Source: a virus | Virus record (IMG/VR): IMGVR_UViG_3300045995_000350 | Coordinates: 1 to 40,811 of that record | Direction: 5' to 3' (one strand) | DNA: 40,811 bases | Shown here: positions 3,188 through 29,396 of the stretch, in pieces | Position numbering within the stretch: position 1 is the first letter of the stretch | Layout: each line of letters starts with the position of its first letter | The notes under the pieces: generated by a model | What the model was told of the DNA's origin: nothing | Database searches by the model: none | Seen by the model: only the letters and a program-made list of their open reading frames with translations | Made by a program: the position numbers and the translations under genes

Positions 3188-3619
3188 TTAAGCTGTAATT
3201 TGTGCCCGCAATACACCTGCCTGGTCTTCCAGGGCTTTGATTCGGGTTAGATCGCCCTCCCGCAAGGCTCGAATACTTTTCAGGTCGAGGTCGTCTAACT
3301 GGGCTTTGATGGCTTGATTGGCCTGGATTACTTTCTGAGCCTGATTCGCCGCCGCCGTAGCCGCATCCAGTGCCCCCACATCCCACTTGTATTGCCACTG
3401 TCCATTCACCAGTTCCCCGCCGTTGCGCTGGCAGGATTGGGTGATGGTGTCGAAAGCGGGCTGCTCTGTTTCGAGTAGCGTGACAACGTGAAACATCGCC
3501 GCTTCCTCTGCTGTCAATGCTGATGCAGGACAAAAGTGGTTTTCATCCCACTCCACATTGCCGCCGGTTGTAATCTGATGGCTATAGCTGCCGTCTGTGT
3601 TGAGTTGTGCGCATTGCAT
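3188..3619 (-). CDS. Fibre-locus protein with C-terminal coiled coil, possible fibre assembly factor
   Basis: A 143-aa protein. Residues 1-75 are a small mixed domain (WDENHF, then a Glu-rich helix). A segment with the QWQYKW motif follows, and the last 60 residues are a long charged helix (ALDAATAAANQAQKV through LKSIRALREGDLTRIKALEDQ). Proteins of this size and shape next to fibre genes are often fibre assembly or chaperone proteins. The start at 3617-3619 is preceded by AAAGGA; an extension of the frame to 3730 is low-complexity and unsupported. Confidence 0.65.
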   Translation of the reverse strand: MQCAQLNTDGSYSHQITTGGNVEWDENHFCPASALTAEEAAMFHVVTLLETEQPAFDTITQSCQRNGGELVNGQWQYKWDVGALDAATAAANQAQKVIQANQAIKAQLDDLDLKSIRALREGDLTRIKALEDQAGVLRAQITA

Positions 3620-8488: not shown

Positions 8489-9532
8489 TCAACCATAACC
8501 TCCGTGAAGCACCCAACCACCGTCTGGCCGATTCCCTCTAGACAGCGCTCGATCATAGCGGGATACCATTGCCGGACGTGAGTTCAACGCCTTGATAAAA
8601 TCCATTGATTGTTGGGCATTGACCTTAATCGCTTCGGTCAGTGGGAATCCATACTCAGCGCACAACTCCTTAGCCAGTAGCCATTTGAAAGCCCGGTTAT
8701 ATCCCTGCGGCATCATGATGGGCTGATTGAGCGTCAGGTTGGACAAGATAGTGTCAGTGAACAGGTGCAGTTCGGCCCCATTTCCAGGCGTCTGATAGAC
8801 GTTCAGCAGGCCGTAGGGGTACTGCTGGTTGTACCATGCCACAGTCGGCCACGGTCCCGATTGAACCTTGTATAGAATGCTGGTAAATTGCTCCTGAGTT
8901 TCATTCACGTCAATCGTAAAATCCAGATTGTTGAACCGTGTGAATCCATGCGTGATCCGAAGCGGTCGCGGGATTGGTAGATCACCAGGTACCGTGTAGG
9001 TGATCGAGTCAGAACTGTTAGAGGTACCGGTCGCCTTTGCCGACATTGTGATCGTCTGAGCCATAGCGCTGAAGGCCGTCACTGTGGCACCGTTTGGAAT
9101 CAGGTTTTGCAGGTCAGTCAGGATCGAGCCAGAGCCAATCTGATATGCCGCCGATGATCCAGCGACAAGATTACTGGGGATGCTGGTAACGCCCGTAATC
9201 ACGCTTGATCCGCTTGTAAGCGTACCGGTGATGTTGGGCCATACCTGCGAGAGATATGGGGAGGATGCGGCACCTACTGCGCTGGTATTGTTCGCCCCGC
9301 TCAACTGTGCATTCGTTGGGTTTCCAATCGTGTAGATACTCTTCCCGGAAGTCCAACTCAGAATCCATTCATTGGAGCCGAAAATATAGGCCTTGTCGGT
9401 GCTCAGAGAGTCCAGTAAGTCATTGAAAGTATCGAGGCAGTCTTGTGCGTCCGGTGTTGCGATCTGTTCGCCGGATTGGTAGCTGTTGATGCGGCGCAGA
9501 GCGGCCTTGATAAAATCAAGCGCAGTCGTCAT
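8489..9532 (-). CDS. Tail accessory / portal extension protein, P22 gp4-like
   Basis: A 347-aa protein beginning MTTALDFIKAALRRINSYQSG, the characteristic gp4 start (helical pair, then LDTFNDLLDSLS). Such proteins attach under the portal ring and extend the channel. Residues about 95-185 form a Ser/Thr/Ala-rich beta insertion that splits the usual domain. The fold resumes with PIPRPLRITHGFTR and ends with helices (FKWLLAKELCAEYGFPLTE). P22 gp4 itself is much shorter, so the insertion is notable. A GGAGGA site precedes the ATG, and the start overlaps the PASTA-like gene (ATGA). Confidence 0.8.
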   Translation of the reverse strand: MTTALDFIKAALRRINSYQSGEQIATPDAQDCLDTFNDLLDSLSTDKAYIFGSNEWILSWTSGKSIYTIGNPTNAQLSGANNTSAVGAASSPYLSQVWPNITGTLTSGSSVITGVTSIPSNLVAGSSAAYQIGSGSILTDLQNLIPNGATVTAFSAMAQTITMSAKATGTSNSSDSITYTVPGDLPIPRPLRITHGFTRFNNLDFTIDVNETQEQFTSILYKVQSGPWPTVAWYNQQYPYGLLNVYQTPGNGAELHLFTDTILSNLTLNQPIMMPQGYNRAFKWLLAKELCAEYGFPLTEAIKVNAQQSMDFIKALNSRPAMVSRYDRALSRGNRPDGGWVLHGGYG

Positions 9533-9867
9533 GATCCGATTCCTCCGAAGTTAGATACACTCATGGGAAATGACAATGCGGTCAGACTGACTGCGGAATT
9601 CGACGCTACGATACTGCCTGCTGCTGGTGACTGATCTGTCACCTGTCCGGGATTTATGATTGGTACTGAAAACCACATAATCGTTACCATTGATAAATGC
9701 CAGTATGACATCAGGACCATTGGTTTCGCACTAGTTGGAGTGACCCAAGCGATCGTTACCGGATCAGCTTGGAAATACCCCAAAGGAAGCACTCTCACAC
9801 CAGCGCTGACCATCGAGACCAGAGCATCGTGATAACCCATACCGACAACGTTTGGCATCATCGGCAT
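9529..9867 (-). CDS. PASTA-domain-like small virion protein
   Basis: A 112-aa protein. Residues 4-30 (PNVVGMGYHDALVSMVSAG) and 70-100 (GQVTDQSPAAGSIVASNSAVSLT) match the two halves of a PASTA domain, with a longer loop between them (residues 33-68). PASTA domains are known from cell-wall-binding kinases and penicillin-binding proteins. In a phage structural operon the domain is more likely a decoration or tail-joining fold. It lies between a beta-rich virion gene and the gp4-like gene and overlaps the latter by ATGA. The domain call is from pattern recognition only. Confidence 0.65.
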   Translation of the reverse strand: MPMMPNVVGMGYHDALVSMVSAGVRVLPLGYFQADPVTIAWVTPTSAKPMVLMSYWHLSMVTIMWFSVPIINPGQVTDQSPAAGSIVASNSAVSLTALSFPMSVSNFGGIGS

Positions 9868-9876
9868 GAGTTATCC

Positions 9877-10242
9877 TCAAATAATCACACAAGCACCGAC
9901 ATTCACCACGCCAACCAGCGAGGTAGGAGTGATGGTAACCAGCCAATTAGCCGGCAATACGTCCGTTGCCGTCACATTTGTGACTGCGGTCAATCCTGGG
10001 TAAACAGTCAGAATCGTAACGGCTGCGGCGCTGAGTGCGGCTGATGTCAGGATTGTGTATGCAACCCCGTTGATCAACCCACTAAGCGTCACTGTGAAAC
10101 TACCCGATGTGTACGGAGTGCAATTGACTTGCAACTTTACGCCACGCCCATATGGGTTGCTTTGTACCGAACTCGTTGCAGCAGTCGATCCCGGCGAAGA
10201 TGCCGAGATGACGCTTGCAATGTTGCTATTGCTGGAACTCAT
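9877..10242 (-). CDS. Beta-rich structural protein, unknown
   Basis: A 121-aa protein with a Ser/Asn-rich N-terminus (residues 1-30) and a strongly beta-patterned rest (SGSFTVTLSGLINGVAYTIL, then NWLVTITPTSLVGVV), resembling an Ig-like or fibronectin-like fold. It lies in the head-to-tail part of the structural operon, between a 240-aa head-associated protein and the PASTA-like gene. The start ATG at 10240-10242 has an AGAGA site. A decoration or joining role is plausible but unproven. Confidence 0.6.
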   Translation of the reverse strand: MSSSNSNIASVISASSPGSTAATSSVQSNPYGRGVKLQVNCTPYTSGSFTVTLSGLINGVAYTILTSAALSAAAVTILTVYPGLTAVTNVTATDVLPANWLVTITPTSLVGVVNVGACVII

Positions 10243-27071: not shown

Positions 27072-27272
27072 TTAGGCACCTGCGGGGACTTGGCTTTTAA
27101 ACAGGTAGTCATGCAGCGCTTGAACCCGGCTAAAACCAGGGTCGCTCTCCTGGTTCTTGATGCGCAAAATTGTGTCGTATGGGATGCCGCTTTCGTCTGC
27201 GACTCGCCGAAGGTCGCCTGTTCGCTTTTCCAGCTCTGCGACTACGGCTTCAAGGATGTTTGGATTGCTCAT
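27072..27272 (-). CDS. Small Cro/CI-like repressor, probably from a leaderless mRNA
   Basis: A 66-aa protein with an HTH (TGDLRRVADESGIPYDTILRIKNQESDPG, residues 18-46), the size and fold of a Cro-type repressor. I place the start at ATG 27270-27272. The -10 element of its promoter (27280-27285) ends eight bases before the A of this ATG, so transcription should begin at or next to the start codon; no ribosome site fits in front. It is the first gene of the leftward arm. Three operator-like sites lie between it and the divergent promoter, so it probably represses both. Confidence 0.8.
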   Translation of the reverse strand: MSNPNILEAVVAELEKRTGDLRRVADESGIPYDTILRIKNQESDPGFSRVQALHDYLFKSQVPAGA

Positions 27273-27279
27273 ATTCAGC

Positions 27280-27308
27280 ATCTTAGGCATATGTGCCTTG
27301 TATGTCAA
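27280..27308 (-). promoter_or_regulatory. Leftward early promoter
   Basis: TTGACA (27303-27308) and TAAGAT (27280-27285) with a 17-base spacer on the minus strand: a perfect -35 and four of six in the -10. It drives the repressor and the leftward arm. The operator-like palindrome at 27285-27298 overlaps the -10 and the spacer. Confidence 0.75.
27285..27298. promoter_or_regulatory. Operator-like site 1
   Basis: AGGCATATGTGCCT: perfect AGGCA/TGCCT half-sites with four bases between. It overlaps the -10 and spacer of the leftward promoter, so binding there would shut the repressor gene's own promoter. Confidence 0.65.
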
Positions 27309-27355
27309 GTCCTATTTTCACGGAACACACCCGAAACACTATGTTACAGTTTAGA

Positions 27356-27369
27356 TGGTAAAAATGCCT
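27356..27369. promoter_or_regulatory. Operator-like site 2
   Basis: TGGTAAAAATGCCT carries a good TGCCT half-site and a weaker GGTA half-site at the same spacing. It lies between the two promoters, 71 bases from site 1 and 31 from site 3 (centre to centre). Confidence 0.45.
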
Positions 27370-27377
27370 GAAATGAC

Positions 27378-27406
27378 TTGACGTATAGGTAGATATGCCT
27401 GATACT
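27378..27406 (+). promoter_or_regulatory. Rightward early promoter
   Basis: TTGACG (27378-27383) and GATACT (27401-27406) with a 17-base spacer: five of six and four of six. It faces away from the repressor gene. The transcript would start near 27413 and enter the structured leader. Confidence 0.65.
27387..27400. promoter_or_regulatory. Operator-like site 3
   Basis: AGGTAGATATGCCT has AGGTA/TGCCT half-sites (one mismatch to perfect symmetry) and fills the spacer of the rightward promoter, the same placement as site 1 in the leftward promoter. Confidence 0.55.
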
Positions 27407-27436
27407 TCACTCATCGCACCAAAAAGCGCAAGACCC

Positions 27437-27460
27437 AGCCCGACGCAACGAGGGCTTTTA
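27437..27460 (+). terminator. Early terminator or attenuator-like hairpin
   Basis: AGCCC-GACGCAACGA-GGGCT followed by TTTA, about 25 bases after the expected rightward start. The stem has five pairs and the U tract is short, so it is weak; it could act as a pause or an antitermination-controlled stop. Confidence 0.4.
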
Positions 27461-27539
27461 TCCGAACCGCATGGCGCTAGGGGGTTTAGGGCCAAGGCCT
27501 ACAGCTGGGGGGCGATGAGAGATGAGATAGGTAGACCAC

Positions 27540-27726
27540 TTTGACTCCGGGGTGCCAGCCCGGACGAGCGCGAAGGCTGAGGACGCTAATGAGCCGAGCC
27601 CCATCGAGGGCAAACCGATTAGCAGTAGGCTGGAGACAGTCAAACGCCGGTACGCGATCCGGCACACAATTGCCCTTGGGAACAGGGGCAAAACCAAAGC
27701 AGATTTTGCGGTATGCTTTGGTTTTG
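27540..27726 (+). ncRNA. Structured leader RNA, unknown
   Basis: Stems visible by eye: 27540-27546 with 27638-27644 (7 bp, closing), 27547-27551 with 27559-27563, 27585-27590 with 27618-27623, 27598-27601 with 27608-27611, 27646-27650 with 27659-27663, 27670-27675 with 27686-27691, and a perfect 13-bp stem 27689-27701 with 27714-27726. The loop bases 27555-27560 can also pair with 27628-27633, an alternative fold. An 87-codon GTG frame (27552-27815) covers the same stretch but has no known features. RNA and coding readings are both open; I favour RNA. Confidence 0.45.
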
Positions 27727-27817
27727 GACGCAAGTCATGCCCTGACGCCGCAAGGCAAAAAGGGATTGAGGGGATTTTCCCAAGACTGGGCCGCGCAGTG
27801 CAGCGGAAGGAGTAAAA

Positions 27818-27985
27818 ATGCTGGCAAAACAAATCCAGCGGGTTGCCGAAGAAGTGATGGTGCTTAACCACCATTTCTCCGACGTACAAGTTTCCGACAT
27901 GGTGTATTCGCTAATTTTTGGCGAATACGACGGGCGTGAAGCCCACAAGCGCAATCTCGCGCTGGTCGTGCGGACAATTAGTTAG
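27818..27985 (+). CDS. 55-aa hypothetical protein in the structured early region
   Basis: ATG 27818-27820 with a strong AAGGAG site, ending at TAG 27983-27985. The product begins MLAKQIQRVAEEVMVLNHH and ends in a basic helix with EAHKRNLALVVRTIS. It is the first gene of the rightward arm and is surrounded by structured non-coding sequence. No family recognised. Small first genes of phage early transcripts often target host functions; that is inference. Confidence 0.65.
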   Translation: MLAKQIQRVAEEVMVLNHHFSDVQVSDMVYSLIFGEYDGREAHKRNLALVVRTIS

Positions 27986-28035
27986 CTCGCAAGTCTGGCA
28001 AGACTAAAAACATGCCGCCCGACTCCGGGGCGCGT

Positions 28036-28076
28036 ACCGGGTGACAAATCAAACTGCACAAGTTGCGGTTTTTTTT
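28036..28076 (+). terminator. Weak terminator candidate with T8 tract
   Basis: ACCG (28036-28039) pairs with CGGT (28066-28069) around an inner AACT/AGTT stem, followed by eight T at 28069-28076. The stem is poor but the T tract is long. It would separate the 55-aa gene from the five-way-junction RNA. Confidence 0.35.
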
Positions 28077-28089
28077 CGTCCAAATTTTG

Positions 28090-28249
28090 CGAGAGTGATG
28101 TGTGAAGGTGAATTGCCCGATGAATTCCAACGTTTCGGGCCGTGGTTGTCGGAGACGTCCGATTTACCACGATGGAGGTGTGGAGTAATTACCGCACAAG
28201 TGCCATGAGGTCGGGTGATGGTCCCGGCCGCCTTCACACATCATTCTCG
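28090..28249 (+). ncRNA. Five-way-junction structured RNA, unknown class
   Basis: A 19-bp closing helix (28090-28108 with 28231-28249) encloses four hairpins. They are 28115-28120/28135-28140; 28141-28146/28166-28171 with inner 28149-28153/28158-28162; 28178-28183/28192-28197; and 28209-28215/28223-28229. Helices two and three abut with no gap, and the last lies one base from the closing helix. Three wobble pairs (28095-28244, 28181-28194, 28211-28227) are G-U only if the plus strand is transcribed. Length is about 160 nt, lying before the DUF7666 gene. A 120-codon frame from 28142 covers part of it but looks random. I do not recognise the RNA family. Confidence 0.6.
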
Positions 28250-28263
28250 ATGAGAGTTGAGAT

Positions 28264-28446
28264 AAGCGGCGGCGTGAAATTTTTAAACAGCACGCAAAAC
28301 TGGGAATATGCCGGTGACGTAAACCGGGGAAGAAACGAGCTCATCCGCTGCCAGGTTCGTGCGGGTGACTTGTGGGGCACGTCAGACAGTGCCATTCCGG
28401 GGTGGTGTCCGGACCGCTTTTCTCAGCTCTCGATGAGCGATTTTTC
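28264..28446 (+). ncRNA. Second structured domain after the five-way junction
   Basis: AGCGG (28265-28269) pairs with CCGCT (28345-28349) around two hairpins (28272-28276/28291-28295 and 28311-28315/28323-28327). Three more hairpins follow: 28376-28380/28389-28393, 28396-28400/28409-28413, and 28426-28429/28435-28438, the last followed by GA and TTTTT. It may be the 3' part of one longer RNA or the leader of the DUF7666 gene (start 28470). Confidence 0.35.
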
Positions 28447-28469
28447 GATGTGCAACTACAGGAGTTTAG

Positions 28470-29396
28470 ATGGCGACCAAGAAAAAAACGACGAAGGCGA
28501 TTGAAGCGGCACACGCGCCTGCTACGCCGGTAGTGATCGGGTATAAAGGCTTCGATACTGATCTGAAATGCCGAGGCTTCGGCTACGAGGTCGGCAAGAG
28601 CTACGAACATGATGGTCCGGTTAAGGCGTGTAAGTCAGGATTCCACGCATGCGAAAACCCGCTGGACGTGTTCTCGTACTATGGCCCGGTTGATGCCAGG
28701 TTTTGTCTCGTCGAAATGTCGGGCGAGTTGAGTCGACGCAGCGAAGATAGCAAGATCGCATCGGCAAAGATCACGATCAAGGCTGAAATCGGATTGCCGC
28801 AGATCATCGCGGATTCGGTTAAGTGGATCATGGCTCTGTGCAAGGCCTCAGCGCTGGGCGCTGAGGCCGCGTCGGGCGACTACTCGCAACTGGCCGCGTC
28901 GGGCGACTACTCGCAACTGGCCGCGTCGGGCGACTACTCGCAACTGGCCGCGTCGGGCGACTACTCGCAACTGGCCGCGTCGGGCGACTACTCGAAACTG
29001 GCCGCGTCGGGCGACTCCTCGAAACTGGCCGCGTCGGGCGACTCCTCGAAACTGGCCGCGTCGGGCGACTACTCGCAACTGGCCGCGTCGGGCGACTCCT
29101 CGAAACTGGCCGCGTCGGGCTACTCCTCGAAACTGGCCGCGTCGGGCGACTCCTCGAAACTGGCCGCGTCGGGCGACTCCTCGCAACTGGCCGCGTCGGG
29201 CAAAAAATCTGTTGCCTGCGCCGCCGCTCCGAACTGCACGGCCAGCGCGGGAGAACTCGGCTGCATCGTGTTGACGCGCTGGGTCGGCATCGAAAATCGC
29301 TATCGGGTGTCGGTTGGATACGTCGGAGAGAACGGGATCAAACCGAACGTGATCTACAAGATTGGTTCTGCCGGCGAGTTCGTGGAGGTCGAATGA
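28470..29396 (+). CDS. DUF7666-type protein with twelve 9-residue repeats
   Basis: A 308-aa protein. A Lys-rich start is followed by the DUF7666-like domain (YKGFDTDLKCRGFGYEVGKSYE, then CKSGFHACENPLDVFSYY, residues 25-110). Residues 133-240 are twelve nearly identical 9-residue units AASG(D/Y)(Y/S)S(Q/K)L, which should form a regular beta-solenoid. Residues 245-308 are a beta-rich cap (GCIVLTRWVG, then YRVSVGYVGENGIKP). AGGAG lies before the ATG. Such repeat arms in phage proteins of this class have no settled function. The next gene overlaps it by ATGA. Confidence 0.75.
   Translation: MATKKKTTKAIEAAHAPATPVVIGYKGFDTDLKCRGFGYEVGKSYEHDGPVKACKSGFHACENPLDVFSYYGPVDARFCLVEMSGELSRRSEDSKIASAKITIKAEIGLPQIIADSVKWIMALCKASALGAEAASGDYSQLAASGDYSQLAASGDYSQLAASGDYSQLAASGDYSKLAASGDSSKLAASGDSSKLAASGDYSQLAASGDSSKLAASGYSSKLAASGDSSKLAASGDSSQLAASGKKSVACAAAPNCTASAGELGCIVLTRWVGIENRYRVSVGYVGENGIKPNVIYKIGSAGEFVEVE
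28866..29189 (+). repeat. 27-bp tandem repeat, 12 units
   Basis: The unit GCCGCGTCGGGCGACTACTC plus GCAACTG is repeated twelve times in frame, with a thirteenth partial unit. Differences are confined to a few bases (TAC/TCC, CAA/AAA, one GAC/TAC). Such near-identity at DNA level means recent expansion or ongoing homogenisation by slippage or recombination. Confidence 0.95.

Follow-up and report, generated by a model that had tools for sequence, protein, structure and literature searches.

A modular leader RNA of environmental phages, very likely a conserved family, with a five-way-junction RNA as one of its domains

The leader locus

The window, a stretch of 40,811 nucleotides corresponding to positions 1 to 40,811 of the IMG/VR virus record IMGVR_UViG_3300045995_000350, holds a 160-nt element, D3, with two further structured domains, D1 upstream and D4 downstream (Table 1). 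They lie between a divergent gene for a small HTH protein and the first large gene past the leader, and recombination genes follow. The start of leader transcription is inferred from the promoter to be at about 27412-27413, without expression data. Between D1 and the operon there is a terminator-like hairpin and no other promoter-like site on the plus strand, and 32 nt separate the end of D4 from the DUF7666 start codon. The 17-bp direct repeat suggests, by inference, an insertion of 27530-28264 at the junction of D1 with the type A module (described below); the 55-aa ORF, for which no PHROG or Pfam match was found, the terminator-like hairpin and D3 would all belong to this probable insert. 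The DUF7666 gene contains tandem 27-nt repeats (28865-29215) corresponding to a 9-aa repeat, and first genes of other phages also have short repeats.

Table 1. Features of the leader locus in the window.
Feature	Position	Strand	Basis or remark
Small HTH repressor/Cro-like gene, divergent	27072..27308	-	phrog_9425 transcriptional repressor, E 4e-15
Sigma70-like promoter TTGACG-N17-GATACT	27378..27406	+	Consensus scan
D1, 5' domain	27410..27519	+	Match to covariance model R2 (E 2e-13); pairs covary across 8 phages
17-bp repeat, copy 1	27513..27529	+	D1 end and start of long-helix arm; left edge of probable insert
55-aa ORF with good Shine-Dalgarno (AGGAG)	27818..27985	+	Within probable insert between D1 and D3
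Intrinsic-terminator-like hairpin, 8-T run	28051..28078	+	Weak stem; absent from list of energy-based terminator scan
D3	28090..28249	+	Four hairpins within a closing helix of 20 bp, which is similar to type B (R1, 17.8 bits)
D4, long-closed multi-hairpin domain, type A module	28246..28437	+	MFE -80.5, z -5.8; R3 match
17-bp repeat, copy 2	28248..28264	+	Right edge of probable insert
DUF7666 protein gene, first large gene past leader	28470..29396	+	PF24703, E 2e-38; phrog_4433, E 2e-72

Fold of the 160-nt element

On the plus strand D3 has a minimum free energy (MFE) of -87.6 kcal/mol, the MFE and centroid structures being the same, against a mean of -51.4 (sd 4.1) for dinucleotide shuffles (z -8.7; none of 200 as good). 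The minus strand is weaker (-68.8 kcal/mol, z -6.2). For its GC content D3 is the most stable 160-nt stretch on the plus strand of the entire window. Elsewhere, on the minus strand, unusually stable folds were observed at 9721-10120, within genes at 9529-10242. The closing helix of D3 (28090-28109 with 28230-28249), of 20 bp in the fold and 19 bp when counted as an inverted repeat, encloses four hairpins (28115-28140, 28141-28171, 28172-28206 and 28209-28229) in a five-way junction. Two hairpin-hairpin junctions (28140/28141 and 28171/28172) are free of any spacer, and the fourth hairpin abuts the closing helix. G-U pairs are formed at 28095-28244, 28181-28194 and 28211-28227, as well as at 28109-28230 and 28148-28163. 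All three sense frames are interrupted by stops, and a 120-aa ORF (28142-28504), without a PHROG match, overlaps D3 only partly. A search of the window with Rfam 15 gave no match at the gathering threshold, and 27300-28500 gave none at E<=1; membership of the leader in the Rfam families tested, including GOLLD, ROOL, OLE and riboswitches, was not met, and the relatives described below gave a single chance match, to snoR9 (E 0.52).

A preliminary description, made from sequence alone, had presented this element as a plus-strand five-way-junction RNA. The helices that it described and the three wobble pairs that it named (the first three listed above) were all recovered, and the comparison with shuffled sequences that it had proposed is the one given above (z -8.7, 0/200). 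Its view that the fold is that of a plus-strand RNA held, the sense fold being better than the antisense fold and G-U pairs outnumbering A-C mismatches, as did its statements that no good protein reading covers the element and that no known phage RNA family has this shape. Its count of one spacer-free abutment between hairpins was short by one. The placement in an early transcript of the phage, ahead of a gene for a repeat protein, is supported by position and by the DUF7666 gene downstream, in the absence of expression data, and the suggestion of a regulatory, antitermination or structural RNA is still supported as a possibility. It overlooked that D3 does not stand alone and belongs, as a module, to a larger leader.

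A family of modular leaders

D3 is one domain of a modular leader RNA, not described before, which is present in at least eight environmental phages, called unrelated, and which very likely represents a real conserved family. The first link came from blastn against phage loci gathered via a neighbouring protein, where 27406-27489 matched L002 over 85 nt; downstream of this motif, L002 has a closed domain with 26-nt arms and then a repeat-protein gene. L022, L035, L036 and L043 were recovered by pattern scans with the motif and arms, L004 and L033 by protein searches, and L001 by covariance model. The same plan is found in all of these IMG/VR phages, the version in L004 being divergent.

D1 occurs once per record and begins within a few bases of the expected transcription start, and promoter-like hexamers, some of them weak, are similarly placed just 5' of it in other phages. 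It is followed by long-closed modules, either of type A, a five-way junction, or of type B, a long helix that branches at its tip. L002, L022 and L035 have B, L004 and L036 have A, L033 and L043 have A then B, L001 has none, and the window has D3 then D4. The closing helices are of 18-24 bp, and the modules abut directly in L033. The last module is followed within 16-33 nt, including a Shine-Dalgarno sequence, by a start codon (58 nt in L001, with D1 only), and in most members the leader is almost wholly base-paired from +1 to the Shine-Dalgarno region. A and B are separable from D1, as shown by L001, which has D1 without them, and by L036, which has an extra module between genes. This extra module (3204-3328) is B-like and long-closed; it separates gene 1 from gene 2, whose Shine-Dalgarno it immediately precedes. 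The closing helix of the B module in L035 (6042-6167, reverse-complement coordinates) is chimeric, with an L002-like 5' arm, an L022-like 3' arm and an internal mismatch, which looks like recombination inside the module.

No homologue of the leader was found by blastn against 50,697 phages and 72,556 plasmids, so that its members are known only from IMG/VR. Model R2, built on D1, found nothing in 292 cyanobacterial genomes and gave no match in related annotated phages or HK022, and no module was found upstream in the repeat-protein relatives L030-L032. A pattern scan of genome contigs gave two matches, dismissed as chance, in a cyanobacterial acetyltransferase-like gene, and a looser D1 pattern gave mostly chance matches in coding DNA. 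The covariance models R1-R3 were run only on a limited set of loci, and copies in prophages of GTDB genomes remain possible.

Evidence for a conserved RNA structure

D1, of about 110 nt, consists of a closing stem P1, a stem P2 enclosing P3 and P4, and a small hairpin P5, with the conserved unpaired stretches GCGAAACGA, CGAUACGA and CAGGAUGC. In an alignment of eight phages (A7), 93.4% of the cells are paired and 15 of the 26 pairs have changes on both sides; the covariation score is 0.493, against 0.157 for shuffled alignments (0/500) and at most 0.065 when the structure is slid. This alignment was hand-made to the structure, which biases the pair counts in its favour, and a raw MAFFT alignment with RNAalifold did not recover the fold, structural alignment by hand being required. 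Independently, R2 finds two members beyond its seed, L033 and L001; D1 of the window, which is in the seed, scores 65.8 bits. Changes on both sides were also found in 10 of 34 pairs of type B, in an untouched MAFFT alignment, and in 14 of 30 pairs of type A, in a hand-padded one. In D1, A and B alike, compensatory base changes preserve the helices.

The strand is indicated by the 11 long-closed modules, in every one of which the sense fold is better than the antisense fold; their closing helices contain 13 G-U pairs and 5 A-C mismatches. Stops occur in all sense frames of seven of the nine modules checked. The preliminary description would have been refuted by relatives with broken helices or by codon-type conservation; this test did not refute it, since the paired regions of D1, A and B are preserved by compensatory changes and, in most modules, each sense frame is interrupted by stops. 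Because of these stops a protein-coding reading of the modules was rejected. A retron msr-msd reading was rejected as well, no reverse transcriptase being present among 20 window proteins scanned, a subset of the window ORFs that includes the main flanking genes.

A chance inverted repeat or a remnant of a mobile element, without function as RNA, can be all but excluded. In its favour, D3 itself has no sequence homologue. Against it stand the z of -8.7, the recurrence of the architecture in seven other phages, the covariation of D1, A and B, and the result of a search for helices of this form, which gave matches in the member loci and none in 303 kb of other, unrelated phage loci on either strand.

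A purely mechanical role, in which the 5' UTR is insulated against RNases and Rho and the ribosome-binding site is kept free without any specific partner, is unlikely. It would fit the near-complete pairing of most leaders between +1 and the Shine-Dalgarno region and the retention of pairing despite fast divergence of the A and B interiors. However, the excess stability of D1 is small (z about -1), yet the window, L002 and L022 share about 58 nt of it (27430-27487) without a difference, and it covaries; identity and covariation despite low excess stability indicate that its specific sequence and shape are selected, rather than bulk stability. In the window and L002, though apparently not in L022, the identical stretch is also part of a short open frame (PSPTQRGLLSEPHGARGF).

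Position of D3 and D4 among the modules

D4 is recognised, at 28252-28431 (E 0.0012 in 312 kb), by the type A model R3, which was derived from four other phages and left the window out. D3 scores only 6.4 bits with R3, and membership of type A by sequence is not met; its topology equals the five-way junction predicted for type A in L004, L033, L036 and L043. The type B model R1 has its best local match in D3 (E 0.0011 in 2.5 kb), via the closing helix GAGAGTGATGTG, and D3 was not reported in an R1 search over 335 kb. For the interior of D3 no sequence homologue was found. A and B interiors diverge fast with pairing retained. Type B has the conserved unpaired stretches CAUGACGGGA and UGAACG, and its tip sequences are conserved. 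Because of the type A-like topology and the closing-helix match to type B, D3 is inferred to be a divergent long-closed module of the A/B kind that can as yet be assigned to neither, the link to type B resting on the closing helix.

Genomic setting and downstream genes

The first gene after the leader codes for a DUF7666 protein in the window and L002, a YdcK-type solenoid repeat protein in L022 (with a near-identical start in L035), an RNA ligase in L043, an HNH endonuclease in L001, and proteins of unknown kind in L004, L033 and L036. The ligase gene of L043 (630-1229 of its locus, minus strand; PF09414, E 7e-12) lies directly after modules A and B, and the adjoining of an RNA ligase to two long double-stranded RNA domains is an intriguing pairing. 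Since the downstream gene varies between phages, the RNA would serve the operon and not a single gene. This variation also argues against a riboswitch-like or autoregulatory RNA that senses a ligand or protein and controls the first gene. Such a riboregulator could account for the conserved unpaired stretches in D1 and B and for a site just before the start codon, but neither an alternative terminator nor a sequestered Shine-Dalgarno was seen and no Rfam riboswitch matched; it is considered very unlikely.

The leader adjoins genes for Cro/CI-like regulators in the window, L001, L002, L033 and L035. In L033 and L035 the order looks like that of lambda, a codirectional HTH gene lying upstream of the leader (in L035 judged by eye, without a PHROG match). 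From these neighbours, this order and the recombination genes after the leader of the window, the leader is inferred to occupy the PL slot of the early operon, the position of nutL or putL.

Proposed function

D3 is proposed to be a domain of a cis-acting modular 5' leader RNA in a PL-like early operon. D1 would fold on the nascent transcript and modify the elongating RNA polymerase, either alone like put or with Nus-type factors, and the modified polymerase would resist pausing or termination across the operon, read-through being inferred. D1 is proposed as such a nascent-RNA element because of the PL slot and the precedent of HK022 putL. The A/B domains including D3 would be double-stranded modules for RNase III-type processing and protection, which may insulate the ribosome-binding site of the next gene and mature the 5' end of its mRNA. 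The mechanism as a whole, D1 acting on RNA polymerase together with processing by A, B and D3, is inferred without expression data, and we consider it slightly less likely than not, though still the likeliest of the readings compared here. An antitermination role of D1 is inferred from position alone, since R2 does not match HK022 and there is no boxA-like site on the plus strand. As counterpoints, the early operons downstream of D1 contain few sense-strand intrinsic terminators, and a plain RNase III site would need neither a five-way interior nor the conserved loops of type B.

Another, less likely possibility is a cassette of trans-acting noncoding RNAs, in which the A, B and D3 domains are cut from the leader at their closing helices and act free in early infection, for instance by serving as decoys or scaffolds that counter a host factor or a defence. 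It is supported by the compact closed form of the domains with their 18-24-bp closing helices, directly abutting in L033, by the separable and reorderable modules (A-B in L033 and L043, D3-D4 in the window, the extra one in L036), by the conserved tip sequences of type B, and by the precedent of the RNase III-cut leader-trailer helices of rRNA (PMC10250234). Against it, no terminator or own promoter separates the modules from the next gene, the tight spacing of 16-33 nt to start codons favours a role in cis, and the interior sequence of D3 is not conserved.

Beyond the proposed cis-acting leader, a bolder reading is a categorically new class of phage early-transcript RNA. Its conserved core, D1, would target RNA polymerase or some other machinery of the host, and its long-closed multiway-junction modules would be interchangeable cassettes, swapped, duplicated and inserted between phages, which might also be set free as functional RNAs. 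These parts form one joint claim, and we lean against it while giving it a considerable chance.

Comparison with known systems

In HK022, the putL site is found immediately downstream of PL and needs no phage protein for its action (PMC9378689). The leader resembles it as a structured RNA directly past a PL-type promoter, present once per operon and independent of the next gene (PMC9378689). However, put has about 70 nt and two stem-loops, whereas D1 has about 110 nt, five stems and another sequence; R1, R2 and R3 gave no match to HK022, membership of put is not met, and unlike in HK022 no second D1 copy was seen in the other early operon.

In phage lambda, the leader with nutL that precedes N contains a stem before N that is cut by RNase III. 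The resemblance consists in a PL-type promoter, an RNA signal and a long double-stranded element before the Shine-Dalgarno of the first early gene; unlike in lambda, the first gene is not N-like and the long element is a closed multi-hairpin domain and not a simple stem. A boxA resembling CGCTCTTTA, with 0-1 mismatch, is absent from the plus strand of 27400-28470, and a nut site of the lambda type was rejected for want of it, boxB and N being outside the specific search.

RNase III cleaves the leader-trailer helices of E. coli pre-rRNA, of which the one around 23S has 27 bp (PMC10250234). They are similar to the modules here in that a long helix with an RNase III-type site closes a multi-branched domain (PMC10250234), but the domain enclosed here is small and not rRNA-like, without an Rfam match. 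GOLLD and ROOL share with the leader that they are large structured phage RNAs of unknown function, and GOLLD consists of a conserved and a variable half (PMC12286853); they are RNAs of roughly 800 nt near tRNAs, whereas here a core of 110 nt and modules of 100-180 nt lie in an mRNA leader.

RNA-only antitermination signals like put are few and poorly sampled beyond enteric phages. In diverse uncultivated phages, the family offers a covariation-supported RNA at the putL/nutL position, and its model can be used for searches. Collectively, the functional slot, that of an early leader RNA at nutL or putL, is already known, while the RNA and its modular architecture are new, and long-helix domains rearranged between phages as modules would be an unusual RNA architecture whatever their role.
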